Of a DNA stretch of 64,000 nucleotides, positions 40,684 to 42,499 are shown piece by piece. Within the stretch, counting starts at the first letter, position 1. Every line of letters begins with the position of its first letter. The notes under the pieces were generated by a model. That model did not search any database. It saw only the letters and a program-made list of their open reading frames with translations, and had not been told where the DNA came from. Both the position numbers and the translations under genes were made by a program. Source of the stretch: Thalassospira sp. GTDB taxonomy: Bacteria > Pseudomonadota > Alphaproteobacteria > Rhodospirillales > Thalassospiraceae. Where the stretch lies: assembly GCF_002709775.1 (NCBI RefSeq), contig NZ_PAQR01000025.1:1-64000 (forward strand), written 5' to 3'.

Positions 40684-42279
40684 TCAGTCATTACCGGAAT
40701 TGAATGTCGGGGCATGGACCGCCATGCCCTTGAACATCTCGTCGTGATACCAGTCAATGCGATGGGCGCGAATGGGCGGGCATCCCTTGCGGAACAGAAT
40801 TTGTTCTTCCTTGGGGAAACGGGCCACTTCGGCTGATCGCAAGATCGGCTGATTATCCTGTGAACGCAGATGCACCGGGCGGCTGGTATCCTTTCCACCC
40901 CCGGTATCTTCGAATTTCGACATCGCGGTCAGGCCCGACACCCAATCCAGGTTAAATGCCCCTTCCTGCCCCAGCACCGAAATGGCATCAACGCGGCCCA
41001 CGACATTTTCCCAATTCAGACACACATCCATCAGGCCACTCACACCCGAGAAGCCCGGCCAGACGATCATGCCATCGCCATAACCACCGCCCAGAAGGCG
41101 TTCGAACAACGGCATGCGGCCAACACTTTCGATCCCGTCCAGCAGCACGAGGAATTCCGGATCACCCGATTTCCATCCGCGCTGATTGATCAGGTTCATC
41201 ATGCCAGCCAGCATCACACGGCTAAAGGATGGTTGAACTTCCGGGCTTTCGCCGCCCAGCTGCCCAATGACAAAGATCGACACCGGACCGCTGGTAATGT
41301 CTTCAAGGGTAAAGCTGCTTTTGCTGACCAGACGGGCAATTTGCGTATTGTCGAACTCTTCGGTACAGGCCCGGCAGGCCTCGATGATCTTCATGCGCTG
41401 ATCTTCGGTCATATCAAGGATATTGAGCGCCACCTCGGAAATGCGGCCATCGGCGGACTCGATGCTCATCATTTCTTCGAGGATTTTGTAGAACCGGTGC
41501 GATGGCATGGTCAGGTTGCGGCGCACTTCGGCAAGGTTTCGGTTGTCCTTTTCACTGCGCTGGATCGTGAACACGATAAAGCCCTGCAACAGCGTCCTTG
41601 CGGTGCGGACTTCCTGCTCATCGAGTTCCTTGACAAACATCGGCGCCAGAAGCGTATCGGCAATAAGGCCGGTATCGGTAATCAGGCCTTCACCCTGCTG
41701 GCGGATGAAATCAAACGGATTGAAATGTTCGGTTTCAACACCGGTCTGTTTGTGCGGGTCAATCACGATCAGTTTCTGACCAAGCTTGGTTCGGCGCTCG
41801 TGAATGGCGCGAAAGATGCTGCCATACCGCTCATAGACAAACAGGTTGCCGGTATGCAGCAATGCATTCGGTTCGGCCGAGGCGCGGTAATACTCTTCGG
41901 GTTTGGTCGAAAAGGTCAGAACACGTTTAAGACCATTGGCACCAAGCAGGCGTTTGTCATTTCCCCAACGCCCCAGCACAAATGCCGGATTTTTATCAAG
42001 CAGCTTGCGGCCATTGAGGTCCTCAAGGGTGGCCCAGTCGCCTTCGCCACGTGATTTGGCGCCTTTTGTGCCCAGCTTGGGTTTCTTTGATTTGGAAGAT
42101 GAAGATGGCTTCATGCGGTTAAGCACAATGACAACGAGCGGAATGAACATCGGGACGATGAAACAGACAGCCCCCAGAAGGGCCAACTCATAGTCACCAT
42201 TAAACAGCCCAAGGGCGATAACCATACCGCCAAGAGCCCATAGCAAAACCATGACGACCCGAAATAAGCCAGTCCCCAT
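40684..42279 (-). CDS. Lone VirD4/TraG-like coupling protein with degenerate ATPase motifs
   Basis: A 531-residue membrane protein. Two helices (about 6-26 and 33-54) precede a Ser/Lys-rich linker. The rest follows the VirD4/TraG order: WATLEDLNGRKLL and FVLGRWGNDKRL (82-111), then VLTF at 120-123. In active coupling proteins VLTF leads into the Walker A GPTRSGKG; here STKPEEYY follows instead. The Walker B region reads LVLLDGIESVGRMPLFERLLG (377-397), with Gly where DE is expected. The following Q-loop reads WPGFSGVSG (407-415). ATP hydrolysis is therefore unlikely. No relaxase, VirB gene or integrase is near. The function is unknown. GGGGAG precedes the ATG. Neighbours are MOSC (convergent) and DUF4167. 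Confidence 0.75.
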   Translation of the reverse strand: MGTGLFRVVMVLLWALGGMVIALGLFNGDYELALLGAVCFIVPMFIPLVVIVLNRMKPSSSSKSKKPKLGTKGAKSRGEGDWATLEDLNGRKLLDKNPAFVLGRWGNDKRLLGANGLKRVLTFSTKPEEYYRASAEPNALLHTGNLFVYERYGSIFRAIHERRTKLGQKLIVIDPHKQTGVETEHFNPFDFIRQQGEGLITDTGLIADTLLAPMFVKELDEQEVRTARTLLQGFIVFTIQRSEKDNRNLAEVRRNLTMPSHRFYKILEEMMSIESADGRISEVALNILDMTEDQRMKIIEACRACTEEFDNTQIARLVSKSSFTLEDITSGPVSIFVIGQLGGESPEVQPSFSRVMLAGMMNLINQRGWKSGDPEFLVLLDGIESVGRMPLFERLLGGGYGDGMIVWPGFSGVSGLMDVCLNWENVVGRVDAISVLGQEGAFNLDWVSGLTAMSKFEDTGGGKDTSRPVHLRSQDNQPILRSAEVARFPKEEQILFRKGCPPIRAHRIDWYHDEMFKGMAVHAPTFNSGND

Positions 42280-42499
42280 CTAACACTCCCCGAGAATGCG
42301 CCTCTACCGTAAAAGGATGCCGGCTGTTTGATGCCGATCTTGGCTTCACGGTTTTATTTTGTGATTTGTCCCAGATCCCGTGCGACCGTTAATCGACAGT
42401 TGCGCGGGGTATTCGATTATATGCTTATACAGTTTCGCATCCCTTAAAGCACTGCGTCTTTGGGGGTATGTGCGGATTTGGCGCACAAACCCAAACGAC

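Follow-up and report, generated by a model that had tools for sequence, protein, structure and literature searches.

Type IV coupling proteins of the VirD4/TraG family are defined by their nucleotide-binding domain in the available passages of one study (PMC7431656) and are described as hexameric ATPases in those of another (PMC7434980). Family members such as the ~550-aa proteins of small alphaproteobacterial plasmids combine two N-terminal helices with a RecA-like core and an all-alpha domain. Solved structures exist for TrwB of R388 and for Cag-beta (Cag5) of Helicobacter pylori, both of which are ATPases of type IV secretion systems (T4SSs). No description of a VirD4-family protein without a P-loop was found in a literature search that had subscription papers mostly outside its scope, and none is named in the accessible passages of a 2025 T4SS review (PMC12857230). 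For Thalassospira, titles and abstract openings on type IV secretion or coupling proteins contained nothing on the gene described here, and a "coupling protein" passage (PMC6759196) concerns, as far as the excerpt extends, an unrelated protein. We analysed such a protein encoded in the window, by which we mean the whole stretch of 64,000 nucleotides. It shares with the VirD4/TraG proteins the two N-terminal helices, the core, the all-alpha domain and several non-catalytic residues that are invariant in the family. In contrast to them it lacks the P-loop, the Walker B glutamate, the D-[IP]-K-G-E motif and the catalytic-site glutamine, and its gene sits in the chromosomal core, where the conserved neighbours include no relaxase.

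The gene lies at positions 40684..42279 of the window on the reverse strand, to which all feature coordinates below refer, and encodes 531 amino acids from an ATG start codon; its assignment to the VirD4/TraG family draws on the open frame, a Pfam match and the predicted fold. The match is to PF02534 (T4SS-DNA_transf; 1.1e-29, 104.1 bits against a gathering score of 20.1), and its best-matching stretch begins at residue 137, directly after the place of the P-loop. NCBIfam returned only TraG/VirD4 models for the window protein, with scores far under their cut-offs. A ribosome-binding site, GGGGAG (42286..42291), can be read directly 6 nt 5' of the ATG, and the orthologues carry at least three consecutive G at about the same distance from the start. 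With a GC fraction of 0.545 (window, 0.553) and a leave-one-out codon score of 0.69 (nine neighbours, 0.61-0.75), the composition and codon use of the gene are ordinary for the locus. The gene order is ispG-hisS-hemA-prfA-prmC-DUF4167-[gene]-MOSC-clpB, where DUF4167 and MOSC were assigned by Pfam match and the remaining names are those that we take the neighbours to bear from their sequences. DUF4167 and MOSC flank the gene at every locus. On the window's contig there is no further PF02534 match and no match to VirB4 (PF03135). The preliminary description, which had proposed a full-length gene with a coupling-protein layout, normal codon use and a ribosome-binding site, set in the core genome away from conjugation genes, is borne out in each of these respects, the last of them for the two families just named; all the motifs that it quoted for the layout were located in the 531-aa frame. 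A 394-aa open frame runs antisense to the gene (window 40870-42054, forward strand) and is probably a by-product of codon bias.

We aligned the orthologues with active relatives and compared the catalytic positions. At the Walker A position most active relatives read APTRSGKG; in the orthologues the same columns hold STKPEEYY or CNASLDFY, and the alignment is free of gaps there. In the window protein this site comprises residues 124-131 (STKPEEYY, 41887..41910); G129 and K130 are gone, and the P-loop absent, in 29/29 orthologues, so that the proposed loss of Walker A stands and the search for an orthologue with an intact motif yielded none. The P-loop lysine was present in 56 of 57 coupling proteins other than the orthologues (29 from order, class and own-genus genomes, six from plasmids, 19 from the phylum search and two short frames); the 57th has a frame that does not include that region. 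The loss of Walker B (residues 376-388, 41116..41154), likewise proposed, is correct by half: the glutamate is replaced in every orthologue (G in 24, R in five), but the aspartate D381 is kept in all 29. Two further losses went beyond what had been noted before. The D-[IP]-K-G-E motif is reduced to E-x-x-G (ERYGS in the window protein, residues 150-154, 41818..41832), with D150 changed to E, K152 and E154 lost in 29/29, and G153 kept. The glutamine of FVQD at residue 411 (41047..41049), which we take to be catalytic in active members and which is Q in 35/35 active proteins, is S in 26 and T in three of the orthologues. Of the 12 columns that are invariant in the 35 active proteins, the orthologues have changed seven (G129, K130, L139, D150, E382, Q411, Y420) and preserved five (G153, P175, N187, A207, G387). 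At many replaced sites all 29 orthologues share a single new letter (R119, A139, E150, C302, G412 and C420, and further G440, L444, T451, A452, S482 and W510). This is the pattern expected of a new function and not of decay, and the protein has probably been put to a new use.

On these replacements the protein would be expected to lack ATPase activity. Motif loss alone, however, is no proof that nucleotide binding has been lost. Walker A mutants of a coupling protein fail in conjugation yet keep their location, their nucleotide-binding affinity and their interaction with substrate, according to the passages available (PMC7434980). Since such mutants keep their interactions, an inactive coupling protein is still capable of binding; and since single mutants retain nucleotide binding, caution is due in assuming that there is none here, although the window protein has lost far more. 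Some pseudoenzymes bind nucleotides, and if this one did so through other residues, the Walker B aspartate kept in 29/29 could be accounted for. Every orthologue nevertheless has other residues in place of the site's glycine, lysine, glutamate and glutamine. GK dipeptides at other positions are unconserved; one of them belongs to an SGKS that a single orthologue, L010, carries in its linker. In both structural models described below, moreover, the helix that follows the first core strand begins at residue 127 (130 in the second protein), some three residues short of where the P-loop lysine would stand. We consider nucleotide binding by way of other residues very unlikely.

If the protein had left the VirD4/FtsK-HerA superfamily altogether, its predicted structure should fall elsewhere; both models fall inside it. 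An AlphaFold2 model of a first orthologue (alignment of 23 sequences) had a mean pLDDT of 76.2 and a pTM of 0.74, the other four models of the same run being lower (57.8-65.1), and a model of a clade B orthologue reached 74.9 and 0.74. The two modelled proteins are 45% alike. The first model superposed on Cag-beta with Z 26.4 (rmsd 4.1, 402 aligned) and on TrwB with Z 26.2 (rmsd 3.7, 372 aligned), and the clade B model on TrwB with Z 26.5 (rmsd 3.2, 361 aligned) and on Cag-beta with Z 24.5. These two proteins thus share the fold at Z 24.5-26.5 with only 12-15% identity. Weaker matches were to VirB4, DndH, the Legionella coupling complex, HerA and FtsK. A search of solved structures by sequence returned only Cag5 (7.7e-4), the other listed match (E 0.68) being an unrelated histone. 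By sequence and by modelled fold, the protein is a VirD4/TraG-type coupling protein by descent. Among its best-modelled parts is the all-alpha-domain region, about residues 196-329 (41293..41694), which consists of helices with block pLDDT values of 87-95 and one block at 75; its boundaries are set by analogy with TrwB as given in the excerpted text of PMC7434980. At the N-terminus, hydropathy and the model agree on two helices, residues 3-26 (42202..42273, hydropathy 2.55) and 30-56 (42112..42192, hydropathy 2.85). In the model a turn of only three residues joins them into a hairpin, a spacing unlike that of VirD4/TraG proteins. Two hydrophobic stretches are found by hydropathy in 29/29 orthologues, some with an extra overlapping stretch, and the hairpin is predicted to insert in the membrane.

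We next considered whether the losses are maintained by selection, as a domesticated pseudo-ATPase would imply. Over 29 orthologues a codon model gave an omega of 0.085, with 0.072 in the main clade (n=24) and 0.122 in the smaller one (n=5). Constraining the main clade to an omega of 1 lowered the log-likelihood from -16258.7 to -18584.0, a cost of 2325 units. By region, main-clade omega was 0.030 around the former Walker B and beyond (371-450), 0.048 for 451-525 and 0.070 in the former P-loop stretch (residues 118-160), with a peak of 0.119 in the linker (61-117). In 18 of the 22 named loci (L046 and three clade B loci were excluded) omega was 0.076 for the gene, 0.040 for clpB, 0.047 for hemA, 0.083 for prmC and 0.098 for MOSC. 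Selection on the gene is strong and comparable to that on neighbouring genes. The preliminary description had asked whether orthologues share the loss and whether it is subject to purifying selection; both hold, in both clades, and its reading of the gene as a domesticated pseudo-ATPase is well supported, while the proposal of a function not previously described is a plausible extension of it. Relatives of the protein are common on plasmids, and the gene could on that ground be taken for a decaying relic of a mobile element. This reading is refuted by the omega over all orthologues, by full-length frames in 29/29 (526-533 aa) and by the same neighbours at 22/22 named loci as far as the sequence extends (L046 begins at a contig end), and we give it practically no credence.

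Conservation is densest in a stretch that appears new to this lineage. Over the 29 orthologues 136 of 531 residues are invariant, and the densest 60-residue window, 412-471 (40867..41046), holds 33 of 60, including the motifs GVSxxMxVCxNWENxVG, QxGAFxLDW, LTAMSxFxDTG and PVHL. None of 10000 shuffles attained this density, a test that is descriptive because shuffling disregards the usual clustering of conserved sites. The block lies partly inside a stretch of low pLDDT (439-486).

Orthologues were found by protein search in 29/29 genomes of the family, as the family is delimited in the genome grouping of the search, all of them from one genus and all over the PF02534 cut-off. A second clade, with five members, is only 42-46% identical to the window protein. 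Among 31 genomes of the same order in the first search, 27 had no match and four (G031, G038, G053, G057) had only distant ones, at 29% identity or less. A peptide scan of 84,980 species genomes gave 22 loci, every one from the Thalassospira group; its queries were two conserved peptides of 7-8 residues, with which distant members could be missed. The named loci are from Thalassospira in 21 of 22 cases, the remaining one being Rhodospirillales bacterium MAG.058, and the nearest is Thalassospira sp. HJ (100% in the best segment). A family-alignment search of 248 order genomes and samples of 385 class and 398 phylum genomes recovered only distant relatives outside the group (best E 4.8e-53). Scans with an active relative and with the family alignment revealed no virus-borne relatives; three matches in a phage collection were all distant, two of them from 4-8 kb faecal contigs. 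PADLOC (2023 library) assigned 0 defence families to 18 members of set A1 at E 0.01.

The outgroups point to how the gene came to its place. At 12 outgroup loci around DUF4167 it had no match (in one of these, L113, the contig ends just past DUF4167). MOSC lies near DUF4167 at five of them and adjoins it with no gene between in L110, L117 and L118. Because the outgroup gap is without the gene, gain at the DUF4167-MOSC site in the Thalassospira line is most likely on this comparison of loci, loss in all the others being less economical. In two outgroup loci a different frame occupies the gap (L112:6835-7447 and L115:8489-10333), which seems to accept insertions. Plasmids yielded matches in 1386 records, many of them alphaproteobacterial; in the best 30 of 1386, identity was 22.5-26.4% and alignments covered up to 97% of the length. 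The six of these 30 that were examined are proteins of 552-558 aa, five near an annotated TraA relaxase or mobilisation protein and the sixth near a TraD gene. In two trees, which took in nine and eight of the 29 orthologues, the stem of the orthologue clade measured 2.9-3.0 changes per site, much longer than the branches within the clade. Support for its attachment was moderate (94/86 in one tree and 80/79 for a comparable split in the other), and the two trees do not settle the donor lineage. Three frames (L088, L092, L096) were omitted from the comparison table and the trees, L092 and L096 being short frames with a P-loop, and L090, L091, L093, L095 and L086 were removed from the second tree for their long branches. 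With so long a stem and only moderate attachment, a mobile-element donor can be no more than inferred.

We then asked whether the gene depends on conjugation machinery in its host. VirB4 (PF03135) occurs in 19 of the 29 genomes. Seven genomes, each of 100% completeness (G003, G006, G007, G011, G013, G017, G019), contain neither VirB4 nor any other PF02534 protein. In an eighth, G015, VirB4 is likewise missing and a single weak PF02534 match accompanies the orthologue. All eight have retained the gene, and its presence in the seven indicates that it can do without a resident T4SS of these kinds. Pseudoenzymes often act through an active relative, and the protein might accordingly join an active host ATPase of FtsK/HerA type in a mixed complex, as its regulatory or structural subunit. 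Its predicted fold belongs to that superfamily, and a pseudoenzyme working through an active relative appears in the available part of PMC5201418. In the seven genomes, however, only a more distant ATPase, for example FtsK, could be the partner, and no ATPase of that type is found among the conserved neighbours. A mixed complex is thus unlikely.

A different kind of partner would be one that arrives from outside. As a decoy, the dead protein would join the coupling hexamers of incoming plasmids, or occupy contacts of the T4SS or relaxosome, and so block onward conjugation. The many alphaproteobacterial plasmid records with related proteins would supply targets, and Walker A mutants retain the location and substrate interaction that this would take (PMC7434980, in part). 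In the passages available, a chimeric coupling protein reduced R388 and pKM101 transfer roughly tenfold in E. coli (PMC7431656), and the plasmid proteins PifC and Osa target rival coupling proteins (PMC5696584). Their target would be the same if the protein were a decoy, but PifC and Osa are plasmid-borne and the gene here is a chromosomal core gene. Presumably neither of the two is a coupling-protein homologue. Against a decoy, the protein is only ~20-30% identical to the coupling proteins of plasmids and to resident ones, and the nucleotide-site residues, which lie between subunits (PMC7434980, as excerpted), have been rebuilt, so that mixed rings look unlikely. VirB4 is present in 19/29 genomes all the same, and selection is purifying on average. 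We judge this mode of action quite unlikely.

The account that we prefer is of a domesticated VirD4-type pseudo-ATPase that now serves as an ATP-independent, membrane-anchored scaffold or receptor, and we assign it as a whole a probability of roughly 0.55. A short (~530 aa) type IV coupling protein, probably borne by a mobile element, would have settled between DUF4167 and MOSC in the Thalassospira ancestor, lost its ATPase site, changed fast and then been fixed under purifying selection. Anchorage in the inner membrane would be through the N-terminal two-helix hairpin. A partner, either a protein or a nucleoprotein, would dock on the surface of the RecA-like core and the all-alpha domain, both of which are retained. 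Binding of that partner, or of an adjacent subunit if the protein forms a static ring, would most likely be at the rebuilt 412-471 block; the protein may accordingly be oligomeric. The odds are about even for the broader statement that it is an ATP-independent inner-membrane protein of the core genome, with the motor removed and a new surface on its C-terminal half, that carries out a cell-biological or exclusion task without a resident T4SS. If this is true, the VirD4 family would have here its first described pseudo-ATPase conserved across a genus, as far as our searches reach. The fold would have been kept for the lifetime of the genus with its motor erased, which would separate the receptor or scaffold role from the ATPase role in a conjugation-free setting. 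Labels of "conjugative DNA transfer" derived from PF02534 can mislead for such a core gene.

Aligned upstream regions revealed a promoter-like element, TTGAAT n4 CGTGCAAC n4 GATTAT, at 42389..42416, with three mismatches in the window. It lies ~110-137 bases 5' of the start, is exact in G012 and G016 and has two mismatches in G011. Matches numbered one per genome in these four genomes, and a reversed control gave 0. The spacing resembles that of -35/-10 boxes, which suggests that the element is the gene's own promoter; with CGTGCAAC in the spacer it would possibly be a gene-specific promoter with an operator. The element is not well conserved throughout the main clade and is absent from the list of a consensus promoter scan on this strand.

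Several relatives that turned up in the searches have unusual P-loops. Two loci, L066 and L075, were first picked by a regular-expression pass as P-loop-less relatives and were rejected when the alignment showed NRAGKG and SQTGKS. L088 is a 446-aa frame in genome G604 whose match to the family starts only at profile position 230 and which contains no P-loop; it is probably truncated or frameshifted, and less probably a second P-loop-less relative. In L135, a 710-aa coupling-protein relative, the P-loop is aberrant (GSGGFKTT, i.e. GFKT) with the lysine kept. Genome G012 carries two short coupling proteins with intact P-loops about 20 kb apart (L069:6780-8330 and L070:4958-6541), and inspection of the two stretches by eye revealed no T4SS cluster. 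Finally, a 535-aa coupling protein with the unusual P-loop GAGSGKM lies near a recombinase-like frame (L119:6890-8497) and shares its contig with the pseudo coupling protein in G004.
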